Made by a program: the position numbers and the translations under genes. This document shows positions 3,835 to 16,103 of a stretch of 64,000 nucleotides of DNA, piece after piece. Under the pieces are notes generated by a model. It was not told where the DNA came from. It was given only the letters and a program-made list of their open reading frames with translations, and did no database searches. The stretch's first letter is position 1; every line of letters begins with the position of its first letter. This DNA comes from Pyrinomonadaceae bacterium. Its GTDB lineage: Bacteria > Acidobacteriota > Blastocatellia > Pyrinomonadales > Pyrinomonadaceae. The DNA lies in contig JAVEDE010000125.1 in assembly GCA_030841105.1 (NCBI GenBank), forward strand, positions 62,001 through 126,000, given 5' to 3'.

Positions 3835-3878
3835 TGTGAAATCCCTCCACTGATAGTCTGTTGTTCTTAACACGAAGC

Positions 3879-3968
3879 GCCTAACGCCCGGCATCACCCA
3901 TCGCCCCAAAAGATTGCGGGAAGATGACAAGCAGCGTATCGGCGGTCAGGTGCATGCCGTTGTTAGAT
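3879..3968 (-). other. attC recombination site
   Basis: 90 bp. Read on the minus strand it starts ATCTAAC (R'') followed by AACGGCATGCACC and ends GGGTGATGCCGGGC plus GTTAGGC (R'), which fits GTTRRRY. The stop codon of the gene at 3968-4489 overlaps its first base, the usual tight packing of a cassette. Confidence 0.88.
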
Positions 3969-4489
3969 CACTCGTCGGATTCACCCAAGCCAAAAGGCTT
4001 CCACATTTTACGTGCAGATTCGGAGTCATGATCTTCTTCGAAAGGGGTGAGGTCATGAAGGACCTCGTAAACCTTACCTTGGGAAGAAATCAGTGTGAAT
4101 GAAATAATACAGAGCACATCATCTTTTTTTGCCTTTTTAATTTCTTTATCCATGAAACTCGTCCGCACTAGTTTTACATGACTGGGTTCGATTATTAACG
4201 GTAAATCTGTACTTTCTGACTTAGCTACAGAGTAAGCTGAATGTTTCTTTCCAGACATCGAATGACCTATTAGCAGTTCGATCTCTTTAAGAATAAGCTG
4301 CACATTACCTGTATTGCTCAATGCATACTCCACTTCAGTATCATACTCCCCCTCGACCTTATAACTACGTTGCAATAGGACAGCGACAAGGGCTGCTCTC
4401 TTGTAAAAGTAGGTTAAGTAAAGTGTGATCAGAGAGACGACTAATGCGCCTGTGGAAATTACAATTGTTATGATTTCGTTCTGTGTCAT
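3968..4489 (-). CDS. Cassette-encoded single-span membrane protein, unknown function
   Basis: 173 aa. An N-terminal membrane helix (about residues 7-28, IITIVISTGALVVSLITLYL) is followed by a basic YKR stop and a soluble, mostly beta domain of about 140 residues, probably cytoplasmic. There are no recognisable catalytic motifs. The ATG lies only about 10 bp from the attC recombination point and has no Shine-Dalgarno sequence, so translation may rely on read-in or a leaderless start. The gene fills the whole space between two attC sites. No family is recognised. Confidence 0.75.
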   Translation of the reverse strand: MTQNEIITIVISTGALVVSLITLYLTYFYKRAALVAVLLQRSYKVEGEYDTEVEYALSNTGNVQLILKEIELLIGHSMSGKKHSAYSVAKSESTDLPLIIEPSHVKLVRTSFMDKEIKKAKKDDVLCIISFTLISSQGKVYEVLHDLTPFEEDHDSESARKMWKPFGLGESDE

Positions 4490-4499
4490 CTATAAAGTG

Positions 4500-4586
4500 A
4501 TCTACCGCCCGGCATCACCCGCGCCCCTATTCAACTATCATGAGAGCCGTGCTGATGGGGCGTCGGGTGTATGCCGGGCATTAGGC
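4500..4586 (-). other. attC recombination site
   Basis: 87 bp. Minus-strand ends are GCCTAAT (R'') and GGTAGAT (R', one mismatch to GTTRRRY). The internal blocks ACACCCGACGCCC and GCGCGGGTGATGCCGGGC match the other sites, so it is clearly the same family although both cores have drifted. Confidence 0.82.
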
Positions 4587-4602
4587 TTCACGGCTCATTT
4601 GA

Positions 4603-5139: not shown

Positions 5140-5154
5140 GTTCACCTCATAGAA

Positions 5155-5240
5155 GCCCAACGCCCGGTATCACCCGCGCCCCTGCGCGATATGCATGAGA
5201 GGCGCGCTAATAGAGTGTCGGGTGCATGCCGTTGTTAGAT
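5155..5240 (-). other. attC recombination site
   Basis: 86 bp. Minus-strand ends are ATCTAAC (R'') and GTTGGGC (R', perfect GTTRRRY). The internal blocks AACGGCATGCACCCGACAC and GGCGCGGGTGATACCGGGC place it with its neighbours. It marks the upstream boundary of the HEPN cassette. The 230 bp to the right (5241-5472) hold no gene. Confidence 0.88.
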
Positions 5241-5472
5241 TGCTGCCTGCCAAACTATAGCGGATGTTTATTTATGATTCTTAAAACTGTTGATGACAAA
5301 TGATTCTAAAGAGAGACTTCAAGGGGGGATGTCAATAGAGCCGAAGGAGTTTTAGCAAGATTCGTGCGAACAAACGCGAAAATCATTCGAGGAGCGAATG
5401 CAGTTATGGAATGGAATCAAACAAGGTGACAGTAAGTTCAAAGGCGCAGATAAAGAATTAGTGCAGAGACCT

Positions 5473-6142: not shown

Positions 6143-8359
6143 TCAATTCTCGCTTTGACAGATACCGGTACTTGAGTTGGCGCACGTAGAACCCGGCGGA
6201 CATTCCGGCGCAGAAGCGGTTGGTGAGCAGGGAGCATACACTCCTGTTTGTGGGTTTAAGTAATTGACGAGCCCCTGAAAATTACAGTTATTGTCGTTGG
6301 ATACAATACCGCCGCAATGTTCATAACTCATGGCACTGGTTATGGACGTCCTGCTGCTCCTTAAACGCGTAGTTACTGAAGCTCTAAAAGAATCAAAACT
6401 TATCGAGGGCCGGCCGACGCTGCTTTCAGCAGTTACGCCCAGGTTATTGCGTGGGTTGTTGTTAGCAACGACATAATTATTGTAGTGGCTTTTTACTTCC
6501 GGCCCATATTCGGCAACGCTTCCTGCTTCGTGTCGTTTCGTATTGTCCAGCAAGGCAGCCCCGCTAATAAACCCTCGCGGATTTGTTGTGGCTGAGTAGT
6601 TCCCGCATTGAGCCTTGTAGAAGGCGCTACTGGTGTTTTTCAAGTCTGGACTTATCAGGTAGAAAAACATGGTTACTAGATTATTTTCGGTGTCGATGAT
6701 AGAGGTAATATATTTATACCCGTTGTTCGGTCCGTCGTCCTGAATGGTCTCCGCGTGATAAGTAAAAGGCATATGTATAACCGCACGGCCTAACGGTTTG
6801 CCGTCGGCTGGCGGACTACTTACACTCAACACCACGCCGGTCTGGTCTACATAGCCATTGTTGACCTCGATTTTAGATTTTGTCGGCAGCGCAAAATTGG
6901 TGCGTCCGTTAACCATAACATTTTTATAAAGGCTGAAAGTCCTCCCGCCCTGAACAACAGTTGCAGTGACTGACCCGCTCGCAACCATTCTTCCTGCCCA
7001 GGTCGGAAACGCAGCGGTGGTGGCTTTGCTTATAGTCTCGGTTCCGTCACTAAATCTCCATGTGATGCGGGCGTTGGCGAGCAGGTTTCTCACAGTGTAG
7101 GAGGCCATATCGCCTCTTGTCACGCTTATCGGGCCTTCTAAAATCGGCACGGGAACGGCTGCAAGTGTGATATTTGTTGTTCCCAAAACAATAGGACCGA
7201 TCCAACACTGGTAGCCCTTGTTCCTGTCCGGGAAGATGGTTTTTGAGGGGCCGTAAGTGCCAGGAATATCAAAAAACTGGTACCGGGCAAAATCATAATA
7301 ACAACCGTTAGAACACGTATATCCCAAAAAATCCACGCCAACGTTGGAGGCGCATACCAGCGGGCCGGGACGAGGAGGAAAAGGTTGGAGCCAGTGTTTA
7401 GTGACTAAATTATACTGCACCTCCGGCGAGCCGCTCGCAGTTGTGCGTGCGACGGCGGCGAAATCATAGCCGATAGTGTTGGTATCCTGAGCCACGGCGA
7501 TAGGATTGCCGTTACCTTGACGGTAGAGGTTATTCTCGACGATTGCTTGGTAATACGGCTGGGTGTAATAGCTCATCTCCGTGGTAGAGCTAGCGACTAT
7601 CACATTGTTGTATGGGTTGACCGTAATTGACGATATTAAATTAACGTACTCACTTGCAGTAGTCACTACAGTGGGCGGTGTATATCCCGCGCCTGACTCA
7701 ATCACATTAATCAAAATGCTCGGCGTAAGTTCACCGAACCAAGCTTCGCCATCCTTAACCATTTGCCACTGGAAATTATAGGAGCCGGGAGTCGACGGCG
7801 CGAACACGGTGAAATTGAAGGTCACTTCTGCTCCCGAAGCGATTGCCGACGTTAAATACAAGCGCCCGATATTCCAATTATTGTTATCTCTCGGATTCTG
7901 GGTCCCTAACCGATAAGGGCTGTCGGCATCCCACGTGTTGGTGCCGGTATTCATCATCGTCACGGAGACGTTGTAGCTTTCACCCGCAACCATCGTTGTG
8001 GGCACTTCCTGATATACGTATGAGGCGTCGTTAGCCGGGGCGACCCCACAACCGGATACTGACGTGCTTCCCACCTCTTGAAACTCGCCGTAGTAGTTAA
8101 AATACCTTGCGTAAACGACGTGAGGCTGTCCGTCGCTGACGTAAGGCGCAATATCATAGGCGAAAACACCGGAGGTCTCGACGCCTCCGATATTCTCCCA
8201 GTCGACATAAATATTTACGTATGATGAACCAGATATAGAATCGGCAGAACCCCAAACCGAATGACAGTCAGCGGCTAGGCTGTCAGCGTATGCGTTTGAG
8301 GTAAACAGCCCTCCAAAAAACACTGCAAAAGTTAATGTGCGCAAAATTGAAGTTCGCAT
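6143..8359 (-). CDS. Large secreted multi-domain Ig-like protein
   Basis: 738 aa with an N-terminal signal peptide (cleavage after SNAYA). Residues ~115-215 resemble the NBR1-type Ig-like domain common in bacterial surface proteins (AGESYNVSVTMMNTGTNTW, then PGSYNFQWQMVKDGEAWFGE). Residues ~410-480 resemble a PKD/Ig-like domain (ITWRFSDGTE, VTATVVQGGR). The C-terminus is cysteine-rich (CPPGSTCANSSTGIC). No protease, glycosidase or anchoring motif is seen. It is probably secreted or cell-surface and adhesive or structural. It lies between two other exported-protein genes in the same direction. Confidence 0.75.
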   Translation of the reverse strand: MRTSILRTLTFAVFFGGLFTSNAYADSLAADCHSVWGSADSISGSSYVNIYVDWENIGGVETSGVFAYDIAPYVSDGQPHVVYARYFNYYGEFQEVGSTSVSGCGVAPANDASYVYQEVPTTMVAGESYNVSVTMMNTGTNTWDADSPYRLGTQNPRDNNNWNIGRLYLTSAIASGAEVTFNFTVFAPSTPGSYNFQWQMVKDGEAWFGELTPSILINVIESGAGYTPPTVVTTASEYVNLISSITVNPYNNVIVASSTTEMSYYTQPYYQAIVENNLYRQGNGNPIAVAQDTNTIGYDFAAVARTTASGSPEVQYNLVTKHWLQPFPPRPGPLVCASNVGVDFLGYTCSNGCYYDFARYQFFDIPGTYGPSKTIFPDRNKGYQCWIGPIVLGTTNITLAAVPVPILEGPISVTRGDMASYTVRNLLANARITWRFSDGTETISKATTAAFPTWAGRMVASGSVTATVVQGGRTFSLYKNVMVNGRTNFALPTKSKIEVNNGYVDQTGVVLSVSSPPADGKPLGRAVIHMPFTYHAETIQDDGPNNGYKYITSIIDTENNLVTMFFYLISPDLKNTSSAFYKAQCGNYSATTNPRGFISGAALLDNTKRHEAGSVAEYGPEVKSHYNNYVVANNNPRNNLGVTAESSVGRPSISFDSFRASVTTRLRSSRTSITSAMSYEHCGGIVSNDNNCNFQGLVNYLNPQTGVYAPCSPTASAPECPPGSTCANSSTGICQSEN

Positions 8360-8431
8360 ATCGTTCCGGTTTGCCGTTGAGGAGGCATCTTTAAAGGTGA
8401 AGAACGGTCGTATAGAAGCAACCGCGTTTAG

Positions 8432-9019
8432 CTATTCTCGACTCTGGGGGCTGCCACTAATACTTTGCCTTACAAATTCGTCGAACCGTTTGAACTCTGC
8501 TTCGCCGAACTCGACGCGGAGATTGACACGCGCCCTCAAAATAATAGCGTTGCGGTCCTTTTGTAATACTCCTAATTCAGATGGGAGAGGTGGGATAGGC
8601 TCGCCGGGTGATAATCTCGCAACAAGAGCTTGATGCTGTGCGATGATTTTATTGGCCTTAGCATCTTGCTTTTTAATCTCCATCTCACATTTATCAGCAA
8701 TCCTGTCCAAAGCAGCTTCTTGTTTGTCGTTCAGCTTAGCCACTATTTTGTACCAGTGCCTTGCTGATGATCCATCACCCCCTTTACGCTCGATATCCGC
8801 CGCGTCCTTCTTAAGAGCAACTACATGGCGGAATATATGACGATATATTGCATAACGCGGAGCATCTTGGCCCTCCACCGATAGAGGTGAATCTTGGTTC
8901 CCGCCTAATAAATACTGATTTAATGGTTGTAGAGTATTCTTACCCATTCCAGGCTCGACAATGAATGCCAGCGTAATAAGCAAGGAGATACAAAGTATTC
9001 CTGCTATTGATTTGCTCAT
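8432..9019 (-). CDS. Exported small helical protein, unknown
   Basis: 195 aa from the ATG at 9019, preferred because GGAGG lies 5 bp upstream (an ATG at 9031 is also possible). N-terminal hydrophobic signal (SIAGILCISLLITLAFIV), then a charged alpha-helical region (residues ~70-190) with coiled-coil character (KLNDKQEAALDRIADKCEME). It is the first gene of the run 9019 to 5473; the next gene begins 73 bp downstream. No family is recognised; the layout recalls periplasmic sensor or adaptor proteins, but nothing proves that. Confidence 0.65.
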   Translation of the reverse strand: MSKSIAGILCISLLITLAFIVEPGMGKNTLQPLNQYLLGGNQDSPLSVEGQDAPRYAIYRHIFRHVVALKKDAADIERKGGDGSSARHWYKIVAKLNDKQEAALDRIADKCEMEIKKQDAKANKIIAQHQALVARLSPGEPIPPLPSELGVLQKDRNAIILRARVNLRVEFGEAEFKRFDEFVRQSISGSPQSRE

Positions 9020-9137
9020 ATAGCCCTCCATCGAATGTTAAGTTGCTTTAAGAGATTGGATTACAATCTTGGCAAAAGGATGCAGTAAGATCCACAGAGG
9101 TACTTACGTCAATTCAAGATGTTATTGTTGACATGAG

Positions 9138-9163
9138 GCTAACAAACGTAAGGTTTTGTTAGC
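9138..9163. promoter_or_regulatory. 9-bp perfect inverted repeat upstream of the exported-protein operon
   Basis: GCTAACAAA and TTTGTTAGC are separated by 8 bp, about 120 bp upstream of the first operon gene. It has no T-tract on either side, so an operator is more likely than a terminator. The GCTAAC/GTTAGC ends recall attC cores, but the element is far too short to be an attC. Confidence 0.35.
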
Positions 9164-9310
9164 AAAAACAGACTGTAGATCAAGTGGTGATTTATCCTAT
9201 AAATAGGTATTTGTCAACGTTTGGTATTGGTATAGATTACAAACCCAAGTATGTTATTGCCCTAATTTGGATTCTGAGTTCTGCATTTTATGGCATCTAA
9301 AAAGCTCAGG

Positions 9311-9423
9311 TCAGAAATAGTTTGGAATGTTCAGTTCCGCGTTGAAGGGTTGCCCTGCGTTCTGTAACAAGTTGCGATTGACTGGCACCCCCTGCATGAG
9401 TGTCGTCACCGCATCCAGCGCAT
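9311..9423 (-). pseudogene. Out-of-frame continuation of the IucA/IucC-like gene C-terminus
   Basis: Directly beyond the stop at 9424-9426, the minus strand encodes a protein-like tail in the -1 frame (reading LNALDAVTTLMQGVPVNRNL, continuing to IPNYF and a stop at 9311-9313). The shifted frame joins smoothly to the preceding NP near the end of the 417-aa protein. One missing base around 9430-9445 would explain it. The present gene may thus be about 40 residues short, through a real frameshift or a sequence error. The remaining bases to 9019 show nothing else certain. Confidence 0.4.
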
Positions 9424-10677
9424 TCAACTTCTGAATTTCGGATTCGTATGTTCCACATATGGCCGAGCTTTGTCGTCTATGTCGTACACAACGTTATCAA
9501 GTGAATACCATTTATCCTTTGGGAAATAGTTGGCAGGCAACTTGCCAGATACTTCTCGCACCACTTCGCTGACCCTGTGCCGCTCCGCTGCCATATCAAC
9601 ATCATAGTATTCATGCAAAAGCGTTAGTAATGGCTCTAATATGCATTCACCTAACTTAAAATCGAACATGAAACTGTGTTTTATGGTGTAATGTGGCTGC
9701 GTTTCATCTATGCATTTATATGGGTGACATTCACAGTCGTACGGCAGGCGTAGCATTGACATTAGCGTCAAGTCTCTATCGCACGACTCCAAATCCCTCA
9801 TCACGAATGACGCATCGCTGAAGTCGTTGTTGAATGCAACGAGCACGTTCTGGGAGTTCCATTCGGGGAGTATGCCCAACATGCCAATGAGATCGAAATA
9901 GCACCGGATCAACGGTGCAATTAGAACCTCATGAACATAGTCGACCGGGTCTGATCGTCGTTCATCGAGTATCTGCTTCAATAAGGGTGGGTGGTGTATG
10001 GACAAGCGATCGTATGAGAATAAGGAGAACATCGGTATCACATACTTGGCCCTAGCGATATCAAGTCCGTAAGGTCTATTGTCACGCCAAATCATGCCGC
10101 ACTCTGTCATCTCCGAACTTGACGAAAGGACCACTGTTCGCGCACCGGACTCTGGAAGCAGCGTAAGTTTGTTGTTGAGCACACCATTGTCAATGGCCGT
10201 AATGATGATTCGTGCCAATTCCGGTCCTGCGATCGCCTTTTTGTATGGCAAATCCCTTCTTATGCGCCCGAGAAGGCCATCATAATGCAATTTCACGTAG
10301 TCCTGTCCGGGGTAATTGATAATTTGGACGGTTCTCCCGCTAGCAGTAGGCATTACCTTGAGTCGATCGCATCTGAAGATAGTGTAGGGACCCGACAACT
10401 TGGAAAGTCGGCTCACCATATCCGGATGAACGAAAATCCAATTGTCATGATCACACAAGCCATCTACAGGATAGACGGGAATCTGCCCAAAGGTCTTGAC
10501 ACGTTCGATTGGTGCAGTACAGATGTAGAGGTTGAACCACGGGTTTAGCCCGAACGGACTTGTCAGGGGAGATGTCGTATTGACGGCTGTGAAGCCACTG
10601 GGAGAACCGTCATTGACGTACCGTTCGAGGTATTGGGTCGCAGGGCCCGAGTTGGCATATAAGTCTCGCAACAACAT
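9424..10677 (-). CDS. Divergent IucA/IucC-like (NIS siderophore synthetase fold) protein
   Basis: 417 aa, shorter than typical NIS synthetases (~580-600 aa). Similarity is at motif level: IPVYPVDGL (residues 66-74) in place of the usual IPVHPWQ; YVKLHYDGLLGRIRRDLPYK (127-146) in place of the conserved VKLSLxxRITxxxR; and near 266-297 a GILPEWNSQNVLV...RDLE stretch in place of the family's LExHxQN and RD motifs, with the His replaced by Asn274. NIS enzymes adenylate a carboxylate and condense it with an amine or alcohol. The start overlaps the upstream TPR gene's end (TGATCATG) with AAGGAG in place, so the two are translationally coupled. Substrate unknown; homology moderate. Confidence 0.5.
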   Translation of the reverse strand: MLLRDLYANSGPATQYLERYVNDGSPSGFTAVNTTSPLTSPFGLNPWFNLYICTAPIERVKTFGQIPVYPVDGLCDHDNWIFVHPDMVSRLSKLSGPYTIFRCDRLKVMPTASGRTVQIINYPGQDYVKLHYDGLLGRIRRDLPYKKAIAGPELARIIITAIDNGVLNNKLTLLPESGARTVVLSSSSEMTECGMIWRDNRPYGLDIARAKYVIPMFSLFSYDRLSIHHPPLLKQILDERRSDPVDYVHEVLIAPLIRCYFDLIGMLGILPEWNSQNVLVAFNNDFSDASFVMRDLESCDRDLTLMSMLRLPYDCECHPYKCIDETQPHYTIKHSFMFDFKLGECILEPLLTLLHEYYDVDMAAERHRVSEVVREVSGKLPANYFPKDKWYSLDNVVYDIDDKARPYVEHTNPKFRS

Positions 10678-10679
10678 GA

Positions 10680-11726
10680 TCAGGCTCCTTTGACACTATC
10701 TATGTATTTCTGCAATCGCTCGAACGCAGTTTGTATGATCTTCTTTTCATGGTACATGCCGACTTCTTCAGCGATGGCCGCAGCGCGGGAAAGGAAAGTG
10801 CGAGCCTCGACTACGTTGTGATCCATAGAACAATTCGCCAGACCAATTAGGTTCTTAACAATTTGCTTGTTGTAGTGATAACTTTCGGCTTGCGCTAAGC
10901 CTTCAATGAAGCATTCCTTGGCAGCCGGCCGATTGCCCTGATGAAACAGTATTTCTCCCTTTCTGGCCAGTGCCTTGAGAGTCCATACTCTGTTGTCCGC
11001 TCTCTCGTAGCTGGCAAGCTCCGCTCTTATCTCGTTCAAGGCTGCATCGTAGTCTTTCTTGATGAGGGCCAAGGAACTCCTGCTAAAGTGTATCTCCGAG
11101 AGCAGTACGTTCTTCTGTGGGCCGTCGGGTACGTTTGCGGTAGCGTCGAAAGCTTTTTTGAGATAGTGCTGAGCTTCATCAGTTCTCCCTTGCCTTGCAT
11201 AGAGACCGCAGAGGTGCCTGTATCCCTTAGAGACAAATGCGTGGTTAGGCATGCGCTCGGCGGCCACTTCAATTCCGCGCGTGATGCTGTTCTCGCCATC
11301 TTCATACAGGCCAAGCTCAACGCTGGTCCAGCCAATGTCATCGATTAGAACCCTTATTCGCGCCTCATAATTCTTCATGATTATGGCCGAGTTGTTGATG
11401 CACTGCCCCACGGCGATCCGTGTACTATATTTGAGACTGAGCCATACCGGGGTACTCAGGGCATCTCCAAGTCTGAGGATCTCTTGATATTGTTGCTGTT
11501 TCTCCAGTCTCCGAAAGAACTCTATCAGACTGTCGTCAAAGGACCTACTGGGTGCCGCCGTCTTCCTGCCCAAGTAAAATGCAAGCCATGCTATCGCTAT
11601 CATCGCCGCTATGGAGTAGCTGAGCGATCTGTATTGTTCGGGAACAAAGCCGGTTACAATGAACGCCAGTATCGTTACGGTGGTTCCCACGTGACTGTAG
11701 TACTTGTCGATCATTGTCTTTGCCAT
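10680..11726 (-). CDS. Membrane-anchored tetratricopeptide-repeat protein
   Basis: 348 aa from the ATG at 11726; an upstream ATG at 11789 lies within attC sequence and is rejected. Two adjacent membrane helices (about residues 10-50, TVTILAFIVTGFV and SYSIAAMIAIAWLAFYLG) are followed by a cytoplasmic array of TPR-like helices (GLYARQGRTDEAQHYLKKAF; ALIKKDYDAALNEIRAEL; GEILFHQGNRPAAKECFIEG). Such domains hold partner proteins. Translation is coupled to the downstream IucA/IucC-like gene, which suggests the pair works together, perhaps tethering the enzyme at the membrane. AGGGAGG abuts the chosen ATG, so ATG 11714 is a possible alternative. Confidence 0.7.
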   Translation of the reverse strand: MAKTMIDKYYSHVGTTVTILAFIVTGFVPEQYRSLSYSIAAMIAIAWLAFYLGRKTAAPSRSFDDSLIEFFRRLEKQQQYQEILRLGDALSTPVWLSLKYSTRIAVGQCINNSAIIMKNYEARIRVLIDDIGWTSVELGLYEDGENSITRGIEVAAERMPNHAFVSKGYRHLCGLYARQGRTDEAQHYLKKAFDATANVPDGPQKNVLLSEIHFSRSSLALIKKDYDAALNEIRAELASYERADNRVWTLKALARKGEILFHQGNRPAAKECFIEGLAQAESYHYNKQIVKNLIGLANCSMDHNVVEARTFLSRAAAIAEEVGMYHEKKIIQTAFERLQKYIDSVKGA

Positions 11727-11738
11727 CCTCCCTGTTCT

Positions 11739-11825
11739 GCCCAACGCCGCGATTGACCAGCACCCCCGTTCAACGTTGATGAGAGGCACGCCACACGGGC
11801 GTCGGGTGCATTGGTTTGTTCGGGC
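11739..11825 (-). other. attC recombination site (variant subfamily)
   Basis: 87 bp. Minus strand reads GAACAAACCAATGCACCCGA at the R'' side and ends GGGGGTGCTGGTCAATCGCG then GTTGGGC (R', perfect GTTRRRY). The R'' core has one inserted base (GCCCGAAC). The arms differ from the AACGGCATG sites, so this site belongs to a second, related subtype. Confidence 0.72.
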
Positions 11826-12159
11826 GCGACGCCGCGTTGGGAAGACGCGTAGCGCGTGACGCCCGCAGCGCGCTAACGGCGTTGCGACACGAGGAATTAA
11901 TCACGCCCTGCTCATCAGATGCAACGGTGTTCTCCGTGAGGACATAAGCCACAAACCTTGAGCCTTGAGTTGCGCGGGTAGCGCCCGAACGCTGTCTTTT
12001 TTGCCGTCCTAAAGTTCTATGATAGCTGGCGAACCCATAGCGAACGTTAGACCGATAGCAGAGAGGAGGGCATTGCTTAGAAAGATGCCAGCCATTTCGT
12101 TTCAACCATTCTTCCTTTTAATGGGTAGCAATAAGATCGGAAATCTTCAACGATCTAGT
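11826..12159 (-). pseudogene. Probably decayed cassette gene with hydrophobic start
   Basis: This span lies between two attC sites and is cassette-sized, yet no frame is open throughout. On the minus strand an ATG at 12109 behind AAGGA encodes only MVETKWLASF. In another frame 12095-12009 encodes a 28-residue hydrophobic peptide beginning MAGIFLSNALLSAIGLTFAM. Third-frame coding-like sequence follows (GSRFVAYVLTENTVASDEQG). Frameshifts in a small exported protein are the simplest reading. Confidence 0.35.
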
Positions 12160-12255
12160 GCCCGACGCCCGCACCCGCGCATTCAATGAGGTTAGTAGGG
12201 CATCTCGCGCATGAAGGCAACGCTCTTCGCGATCAGATGCATGGCGTTCTTAAGC
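12160..12255 (-). other. attC site (degenerate)
   Basis: About 96 bp. Minus-strand R' is GTCGGGC (one change from GTTRRRY), preceded by ATGCGCGGGTGCGGGC; the other end is GCTTAAGAAC-GCCATGCAT. Blocks and spacing match the family but both cores are altered. It sits 35 bp beyond the 34-residue ORF, as a cassette end should. Confidence 0.55.
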
Positions 12256-12289
12256 TACCACGATTAGAGCAGCCTCGCTTCCGCGTTCG

Positions 12290-13371: not shown

Positions 13372-13596
13372 ATTGAGTCTCCGCTGAAGTAGGTTGAATC
13401 TCCACACCTTGACTGGGAGTTCTAAGTGTTCTGTGTAATTGAGTTTATGAGCCCGCCCATTGGCACCCTGCCATCGAACAGGATGGCAAACTGATTCATT
13501 GCTCCGCTCCAGTTCGGGGTTTTCTTCCTTCTAAACCAACTGTGAAGTACACAACGGTTGGCATCACACGACACAAGGTCAAGTTTGAGAGCCACA

Positions 13597-14445
13597 CTAT
13601 TTTGCTATCAAATGCCTGTCGTTGTTGTGCGGTTGTTTCTCCAGTTTAGGAACAAATGGCGAGACCTCGTCTTCAAAGTTCGCCATGACCGCGCGTGTGC
13701 TTCTATCGAAGATGGTCGCATTCCGACATTGATACCAGCAAAACAGTATCCCTAGAATAGCTATAACCATTCTAATAGCGGCCTCAATTTGTTCTCCCCT
13801 GCTTAACTTAACCCAGAGCATGGTATGAGCAGCTGCCTCATTTAGCTGGTAAAGATATCTCGGGACGAAAAGTGTCCCCAAATCTACCAATACAACGATC
13901 GCTGGAACCCATACAGGCATGTGTTCCAGTATTACCACTGCCCTCCGGGCTACGGCTTGTGGTTTTTGATTGGCAGGAGTCAGTTGTTGAGTTGTTGTCG
14001 TGTAAACAAAATAATGAGCAATACCATAATAAAGATAAACGGCCCGATCCGTGTCCTTTTGTTCAATAGCCTCATCCGCTTCTGCTTTGATCGTAGCTAC
14101 CACATAATGCTCACGCCGTACGGCATAGAAAAACCAGACTGAAAGGACAGCCATCGCTGCGGTACCAACTACTGATAGATCGTAGACCGAGAATTTGACC
14201 CCCAAGAGGGGAACTTGCACAACGCTAAGTTCCTTAAAGCTAATATCTCTCGCAAGGCCTTTCACATCGGATTTAACATTTTCACGATGTAACATATTGC
14301 GAATCCAAGGGAGGGTAGCGTTGAACTGGGCAGTAAGAAGAAGTGTCCCCGCTATGATGATGGTAATGAAAACGTATCTAGCTCGTTGAACCGCGGTTTT
14401 CCCGGCGTCTAATAGAATGCTTAGTTTTTTTTCCTGCCAATCCAT
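13597..14445 (-). CDS. Multi-span membrane protein, unknown function
   Basis: 282 aa. Four hydrophobic segments are visible: YVFITIIIAGTLLLTAQF (~24-41), VGTAAMAVLSVWFFYAV (~91-107), VPAIVVLVDLGTLFV (~180-195) and AIRMVIAILGILFCWYQC (~221-239). The loop between TM2 and TM3 is charged and helical (IKAEADEAIEQKDTDRAVYL) and TPR-like. GGAG lies 9 bp before the ATG. It is the rightmost minus-strand gene of the array, 226 bp upstream of the 324-aa gene; no clear attC separates them. No family is recognised. Confidence 0.65.
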   Translation of the reverse strand: MDWQEKKLSILLDAGKTAVQRARYVFITIIIAGTLLLTAQFNATLPWIRNMLHRENVKSDVKGLARDISFKELSVVQVPLLGVKFSVYDLSVVGTAAMAVLSVWFFYAVRREHYVVATIKAEADEAIEQKDTDRAVYLYYGIAHYFVYTTTTQQLTPANQKPQAVARRAVVILEHMPVWVPAIVVLVDLGTLFVPRYLYQLNEAAAHTMLWVKLSRGEQIEAAIRMVIAILGILFCWYQCRNATIFDRSTRAVMANFEDEVSPFVPKLEKQPHNNDRHLIAK

Positions 14446-15002: not shown

Positions 15003-15012
15003 TCCCAACAAT

Positions 15013-15099
15013 GCCTAACAACAGCATGCACCCGACGCCCAATTAGCATGCCTGTTGTCATCGATCATCTCAGGGCGCGGGTGATGCCTGGCGTTATGC
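15013..15099 (+). other. attC recombination site
   Basis: 87 bp, plus orientation. R'' GCCTAAC, then AACAGCATGCACCCGACGCC, a variable middle, GGCGCGGGTGATGCCTGGC and R' GTTATGC. The same arm sequences occur, reverse-complemented, in the 3.9-5.2 kb sites. Confidence 0.85.
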
Positions 15100-15133
15100 T
15101 GCTTACGTTCGTGTATCAGAAAATGATTGAGCT

Positions 15134-15472: not shown

Positions 15473-15499
15473 AGAGGTGACGCTTGCCTCCGCCGCGCA

Positions 15500-15584
15500 G
15501 CCTAACAACGGCATGCACCCTACACCCATCACGAAGCCTCTCATGCACGATAAATTGGGGCGCGGGCGATGCCGGGCGTTAGAT
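15500..15584 (+). other. attC recombination site
   Basis: 85 bp. R'' GCCTAAC, AACGGCATGCACCCTACACC, then GGCGCGGGCGATGCCGGGC and R' GTTAGAT (perfect GTTRRRY). The following gene's first possible ATG overlaps the R' core (GTTAGATG). Confidence 0.88.
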
Positions 15585-15957
15585 GCTTTCTCGATTTATG
15601 AAATACGAAGCTATCGAACCACGAAGCAAAGATCAGGTTGAATCTGCAATCTCGCGGAATGAGACAAACGAGCTTCTGAACGCTATTGTTTCGGCGGCAC
15701 TCTATGCTGACGATCCGCGCTGGGCTGAAGATATTTGCTTGCGTTTGGCCAAGCATAGGAATTTTAATGTCAGAGGCAATGCTATTCTCGGATTCGGTCA
15801 TATTGCGCGCGTCCATCGGCAGCTTAATGAGAGCAGAGTCAAGCCGTTGATTGAAGCCGCGTTGAGAGATGAAAGTGATTATGTTAGGGAGCAAGCTGAT
15901 GTGACCACGGATGATGTAGAGTTCTTTCTAAAGTGGAGAGTTCGTCGTCCCGGTTGA
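15583..15957 (+). CDS. Small HEAT-repeat-like cassette protein
   Basis: 124 aa (119 aa if the ATG at 15598 is used; neither has a strong Shine-Dalgarno). Two to three helical repeats are visible, with ILGFGHIARVHRQL following NVRGNA and VKPLIEAALRDESDYVREQA, the pattern of HEAT repeats; the protein ends DDVEFFLKW. Short HEAT proteins of this sort are scaffold or immunity-like, with no catalytic function. It is bounded by attC sites at 15500-15584 and 15978-16080. Confidence 0.72.
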   Translation: MLSRFMKYEAIEPRSKDQVESAISRNETNELLNAIVSAALYADDPRWAEDICLRLAKHRNFNVRGNAILGFGHIARVHRQLNESRVKPLIEAALRDESDYVREQADVTTDDVEFFLKWRVRRPG

Positions 15958-15977
15958 GTTGTCCGTAGCCACGCCGC

Positions 15978-16080
15978 ATCTAGTAACGGCATGCACCCGA
16001 CCGCGAATAGCGCGATTCTCATCCGCGAGACTTATCCGTGTCGGGGTTGAATGCGCGGCGGGTGATGCCGGGCGTTAGAT
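15978..16080 (+). other. attC recombination site, right end of array
   Basis: 103 bp, the longest of the set. R'' is ATCTAGT (two changes), followed by AACGGCATGCACCCGACC; the right arm is GGCGGGTGATGCCGGGC and R' GTTAGAT. The variable middle forms its own stem (GCGCGATTCTC, then CCGCGAGAC). No attC was found to its right. Confidence 0.83.
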
Positions 16081-16103
16081 TTCTTCTACATCAAGAGTGA
16101 GGC

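Follow-up and report, generated by a model that had tools for sequence, protein, structure and literature searches.

A two-gene unit in the window (the whole 64,000-nucleotide stretch of DNA analysed here) encodes a membrane TPR protein followed by a shortened variant of a well-known enzyme, the NIS synthetase; the pair is real, rare and conserved, and the TPR protein is a new partner for this enzyme. NIS synthetases are known as siderophore enzymes. A short form without one domain, which appears to keep the ATP-using core, belongs to a lineage in which no ordinary NIS gene was found and travels with a membrane TPR gene among distant taxa, suggests that evolution has given the fold a different task. 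The best explanation, to which we give a probability of about one half, is a horizontally moving two-gene accessory module made of a membrane TPR protein and a minimal NIS-type acyl-adenylating ligase whose product is probably not a siderophore. The main idea of an earlier note on this DNA, an IucA/IucC-like enzyme paired with a membrane TPR protein that may tether it, survives: the IucA/IucC relationship holds, and a homologous TPR gene neighbours relatives in two further genomes.

Table 1. Features of the gene pair and of the surrounding attC-like array
Feature	Position	Strand	Remarks
Short NIS-synthetase-like protein, 417 aa	9424..10677	-	Predicted NIS fingers and palm; lacks about 150 N-terminal residues that full-length enzymes have
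Membrane TPR protein, 344 aa	10680..11714	-	About seven TPR-like helix pairs, preceded by two predicted hydrophobic helices at the N-terminus
Junction	10678..10691	-	TPR stop TGA 10682-10680; 2-nt gap 10679-10678; SD AAAGGAG 10691-10685
attC-like, directly upstream of TPR gene	11734..11846	-	78.7 bits with covariance model; leave-one-out nhmmer 3.8e-7
attC-like, same array	5150..5244	-	98.7 bits; leave-one-out 6.9e-21
attC-like, same array	4495..4590	-	90.8 bits; leave-one-out 4.3e-16; hairpin z -5.8
attC-like, same array	3874..3972	-	78.1 bits; leave-one-out 2.9e-13
Weak attC-like, upstream of pair	12155..12259	-	23.7 bits; left out of model building
Weak attC-like, further upstream	13544..13634	-	21.7 bits; left out of model building
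attC-like, opposite orientation	15009-15104	+	92.0 bits; leave-one-out 5e-17
attC-like, opposite orientation	15496-15589	+	88.7 bits; leave-one-out 3.9e-15
attC-like, opposite orientation	15974-16085	+	74.0 bits; leave-one-out 1.2e-12
Candidate degenerate attC remnant, just after NIS stop	9340..9428	-	3.1 bits with model

The NIS-synthetase-like protein

The 417-aa reading frame named in the earlier note is present, and the IucA/IucC relationship proposed there holds by both profile and predicted fold. PF04183 (IucA/IucC) matches the protein at 7.6e-8 (32.6 bits, cut-off 25), covering only the second half of the profile, and it matches all seven short relatives in our alignment (A4). PF06276 falls below its cut-off in the window protein (0.029), and five of the seven relatives match it at E <= 0.01. 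A sequence search of the PDB gave no match with the single protein and, with a profile of four members, only SbnC at 0.079; the relationship was settled by fold comparison. The predicted structure (mean pLDDT 75, pTM 0.81) places NIS synthetases at the top of a Foldseek search (IucA 6.9e-13). With VIA-align, NIS synthetases take all of the first 22 places (Z 30.2 to 21.7), and the next folds, at Z 11, are PsiK, SelO (Z 11.2) and other kinase-like proteins. Full-length NIS synthetases have about 550-600 residues with an N-terminal domain, and residues 1-392 of the model superpose on residues 151-561 of AcsD (Z 30.2), residue 1 aligning with AcsD 151. This placement, together with the uniform top 22 entries, identifies the protein, as modelled, as a NIS synthetase core without the N-terminal region.

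Catalytic positions were compared in an alignment in which two full-length NIS enzymes, encoded in a Bacteroidia siderophore cluster (L023), served as the yardstick for the short proteins. SxRT (R115, T116), K129, R141, Q276-N277 and R294-D295 are invariant in the seven short relatives. By spacing and alignment, rather than from coordinates, R141 corresponds to AcsD R305, a residue reported as crucial for forming the adenylate, and E272 corresponds to AcsD E442, which has been proposed as the general base (PMC3323832). The citrate-side motifs are altered. In the four closest members only GSPSGF or GSPSGY stands in place of the full-length motif GHPxHPxxKxRxGF (also GHxxHPxxKxRxGF), which is thereby shortened, and the HPWQ site of the window protein is H84-P85-D86-M87, with HP kept and WQ lost. 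The earlier note had read this site as YPVD, which we reject, since YPVD is a different stretch in the alignment with the full-length enzymes. It was correct in reporting an Asn for the His of the LExHxQN motif, which is present as E272-W-N274-S-Q276-N277; this Asn, at the equivalent of AcsD His444, is shared with one other short protein (L003) but is not general, as both other TPR-paired relatives (L006 and L007) have His. The motif pattern suggests that ATP binding and carboxylate adenylation would still be possible, with a changed acyl or acceptor pocket. We note that the yardstick locus (L023 5233-10769, genome G806) is a siderophore cluster of the ordinary kind; of its two full-length NIS genes, one encodes 803 aa with an extra C-terminal region.

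The TPR partner and the gene junction

The TPR repeats of the partner protein are real (PF13424, 1e-9), as the earlier note had it; the two membrane helices that it also described are predicted in the TPR proteins by model and hydropathy, though for that of the window the confidence is low. The model of this protein has a pLDDT of 81, with residues 1-57 mostly low, and its TPR fold is generic, its structural matches being generic TPRs. An alternative ATG at 11726 would give a protein of 348 aa. The earlier note had the two genes overlap, a reading that we reject because the sequence gives a 2-nt gap: the junction, TGATCATG, consists of the TPR stop TGA, the dinucleotide TC and the NIS ATG (10677). 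A good SD sequence lies 7 nt before this ATG within the 3' end of the TPR gene, and since the ribosome-binding site of the second gene is thus inside the end of the first, translational coupling of the two is likely.

The integron-type cassette array

Between 2570 and 16085 the window contains repeated elements of 90-110 bases whose ends are of the RYYYAAC and GTTRRRY types and which include an imperfect palindrome; by sequence they have the anatomy of integron attC sites. A covariance model was built from the array's own elements, and because it was trained on the same elements that it was to find, each was retested after its own removal from the training set. Every one of the seven strong elements was recovered in this way (3.8e-7 to 6.9e-21), and one shuffled sequence gave no match. 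The site directly upstream of the TPR gene has the ends ...CCCAAC (R'') and GTTGGGC (R') and a DNA hairpin z of -2.4; hairpin stability as DNA is clearly above that of shuffles for some sites only. The orientation of the array flips between about 14 and 15 kb, and one short plus-strand open reading frame follows each of the first two plus-strand sites. Separate attC-like arrays, in which short open reading frames alternate with sites, were found with the same model on other contigs of the genome (C49:3.1-6.2 kb and C109:35.7-40.9 kb), which brings the contigs with such arrays to at least three. No match to the integron integrase model TIGR02249 rose above its cut-off in this assembly, which is 89% complete.

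The cassette region proposed from the sequence is therefore real, and the pair lies, on these attC-like features, within the array. On its 3' side, the candidate remnant just after the NIS stop shares a 19-nt motif, GCGATTGACYRGCACCCCC, with positions 11749-11767 in the site upstream of the TPR gene (two matches, 0.07 expected; repeat D13), and the next strong site beyond it is that at 5150-5244. The pair is thus probably a two-gene cassette with a candidate 3' edge. The window-trained model found no attC-like sites in four other loci (L006, L007, L008 and L022), so cassette carriage applies to the window. We note that a 738-aa protein encoded at 6143-8359 on the minus strand of the window has, by eye, an apparent N-terminal signal peptide and matches the Ig-like domain from next to BRCA1 (PF16158, 3e-8).

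Relatives and their neighbours

A pattern-based scan across 84,980 species genomes, able to reach only close relatives, gave two relatives of the NIS-like protein. Whole-genome searches covered the host's class (162 genomes) and phylum (396) and the classes of L006 (395), L007 (391) and G310 (38); they added G157, G310 and the more distant G142. Tblastn of plasmids added relatives from Methylocystis only. None was found in phages and viral contigs, and a weak match in G008 (L005) was judged spurious, the open frames listed there being ordinary metabolic genes. Relatives are very rare: the four close members found include the window protein itself, and one of them (G157) has no TPR gene by the TPR profile. 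The close and intermediate relatives have intact open reading frames of 404-420 aa and keep the adenylation positions at 21-43% identity.

A homologous membrane-TPR gene lies beside the NIS gene or one gene away in three of the four closest members, which come from three unrelated genomes: the window, a Bacteroidales MAG (L006) and an unclassified bacterial MAG (L007). Beyond the window the pairing thus comes from two genomes. Their TPR proteins match that of the window by BLASTP at 1e-13 (L006) and 2e-17 (L007), and plasmid relatives of the TPR protein were searched for and none was found. The TPR gene directly follows the NIS gene in L007. L006 has a tight five-gene run (7345-11599) of NUDIX, NIS, histidine phosphatase, membrane TPR and YdjC-like deacetylase genes, the phosphatase gene separating NIS and TPR. 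With the TPR profile at 1e-8, each of the three genomes yields one gene, which is the profile's own training row; the information in this result is that no second TPR gene reaches the threshold there. In the NIS tree the three TPR-paired proteins fall together in a single clade (97/98), and G157 branches as its sister (93/96). TPR pairing would then be a trait of one clade, and as this clade spans distant taxa, it is consistent with horizontal transfer. The open-access literature yielded no report of a NIS-TPR pair.

Short NIS-like genes outside this clade have other neighbours. That of G157 (L008 8693-13190) is preceded by RelA/SpoT-domain and ParA-like genes and followed by a gene for a 239-aa membrane protein that belongs to no known family. 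In G142, a member of the host's family, a more distant short gene (448 aa; L009 7833-11219) lies between PRTase_3 (PF15610) and HAD hydrolase genes, with glycosyltransferases in the same region; this may be a further use of the NIS fold outside siderophore synthesis. Two Methylocystis plasmids (L012 and L013, 5829-11406) have a 407-408-aa NIS-like gene in a conserved chromate-resistance cluster of sulfurtransferase/chromate resistance protein, ChrA, DUF1259, NIS and MFS genes.

Possible functions

In the module that we favour, which would move horizontally and here lies within an integron-type cassette array, the second gene would encode a minimal NIS-synthetase-type ligase that has the fingers and palm and lacks the N-terminal thumb. 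By homology this ligase would adenylate a carboxylic acid with ATP and pass the acyl group to a nucleophile, an amine or alcohol, giving an amide or ester. The TPR protein would be anchored in the membrane by its two N-terminal helices and most likely holds the enzyme, or the target of its modification, at the membrane. The YdjC-type deacetylase of L006 could expose an amine, and this enzyme together with the NUDIX and phosphatase genes beside it hints at a sugar- or phosphate-containing substrate. Several points count against the module: there are only four close members, one of them without a TPR gene; a phosphatase gene stands between NIS and TPR in L006; Asn replaces the equivalent of AcsD His444; the membrane helices of the window protein are predicted at low confidence; the 3' edge of the cassette is a candidate only; and no integrase was found.

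The earlier note had also stated that no other siderophore genes are nearby and suggested a role other than iron. Among the neighbouring proteins scanned (2.8-14.5 kb) no siderophore transporter, receptor, hydroxylase or decarboxylase was recognised, and such a gene set was not seen beside L006 or L007. In the 162 genomes of the host's class no ordinary NIS gene was found, and their three PF04183 matches are all in open frames of 423-465 aa; with only short genes of this family found in the class, a siderophore role for the protein appears unlikely and a role other than iron gains support. A reduced metallophore pathway, with a small metal-binding ester or amide as the enzyme's product, would fit the fact that every solved NIS synthetase matched by the model is a siderophore enzyme, and also the position of the Methylocystis relatives between chromate-resistance genes and an MFS transporter; the missing gene set, the lack of ordinary NIS genes in the class and the altered citrate-side motifs make it very unlikely. 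We find it harder still to believe that the kinase-like fold serves to modify a protein, adenylating or acylating one that the TPR domain presents, much as SelO or SidJ do, instead of producing a small molecule. TPR domains commonly bind proteins or peptides, and kinase-like proteins are the next structural matches after the NIS synthetases, but a Z of 11 reflects a fold that NIS synthetases and kinases have in common anyway, and the retained residues belong to NIS acyl-adenylation. Least probable of all is a catalytically dead relative that serves solely as a binding partner of the TPR protein; the Asn substitution, the changed HPWQ and GHPxHP motifs and the missing N-terminal domain speak for it, but intact reading frames with conserved adenylation positions in such divergent relatives are hard to explain without selection for catalysis.

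Another explanation, rather unlikely in our estimate, is an anti-phage or stress module: on attack the NIS-like enzyme would produce a small signal or tag, and the TPR protein in the membrane would be its sensor or the effector. The arrangement, in which a binding-domain membrane protein is encoded next to a small-molecule enzyme, recalls the signal-plus-effector layout of CBASS. The spread over distant taxa is patchy. L007 has serine recombinases, an AAA ATPase fragment and a Fic protein among its neighbours, and L006 has a dGTPase-like gene. The base rate is also of interest, as about 10% of V. cholerae integron cassettes of unknown function are anti-phage (PMC12409362). Set against this, the NIS protein has no PADLOC match, the TPR partner matches only a generic TPR model (0.0019), and a known toxic domain is absent from the TPR protein. 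A more specific version, to which we give less credence, is a new kind of bacterial stress or immune module. Its minimal ligase, released from siderophore synthesis, would produce an acyl signal or tag a target while the membrane TPR protein controls it, and the module would have spread between distant taxa and been packaged as an integron cassette. The two-gene size of the unit eases expression and testing, including in the phage-challenge panels now applied to integron cassettes.

Comparison with known systems

With the NIS siderophore synthetases (IucA/IucC, AcsD, DesD, AsbB and SbnC; PF04183 with PF06276) the window protein shares the predicted fold of fingers and palm, at Z up to 30, and the SxRT, Lys, Arg, Glu, QN and RD positions. 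It differs from them in the absence of about 150 N-terminal residues, the shortened GHPxHP motif, HPDM for HPWQ and Asn for His444, as well as in its setting, which has a membrane TPR gene as partner in place of a siderophore gene set. The Methylocystis plasmid proteins (WP_165050719.1 and WP_330085208.1) have the same shortened architecture, with about 408 aa and a full-length alignment at 26% identity; unlike the window gene, theirs lie in a chromate-resistance cluster with DUF1259 and MFS transporter genes adjoining and no TPR gene, and they read QSHAQN where the window protein reads EWNSQN. The TPR protein resembles bacterial membrane TPR proteins in its predicted N-terminal membrane helices and cytoplasm-type TPR superhelix, but it belongs to no named family and has a motif, LIDD-GW ... 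KGYRHL, that is shared with its L006 and L007 homologues. Finally, the array differs from integron gene cassettes and CALIN arrays in that no integrase was found, the unit has two genes, the 3' site is degenerate or absent and the orientation changes; it is like them in its attC-like sites between open reading frames, the conserved ends of these sites, the start of the TPR gene 20-35 nt after a site, and the presence of separate arrays elsewhere in the genome.
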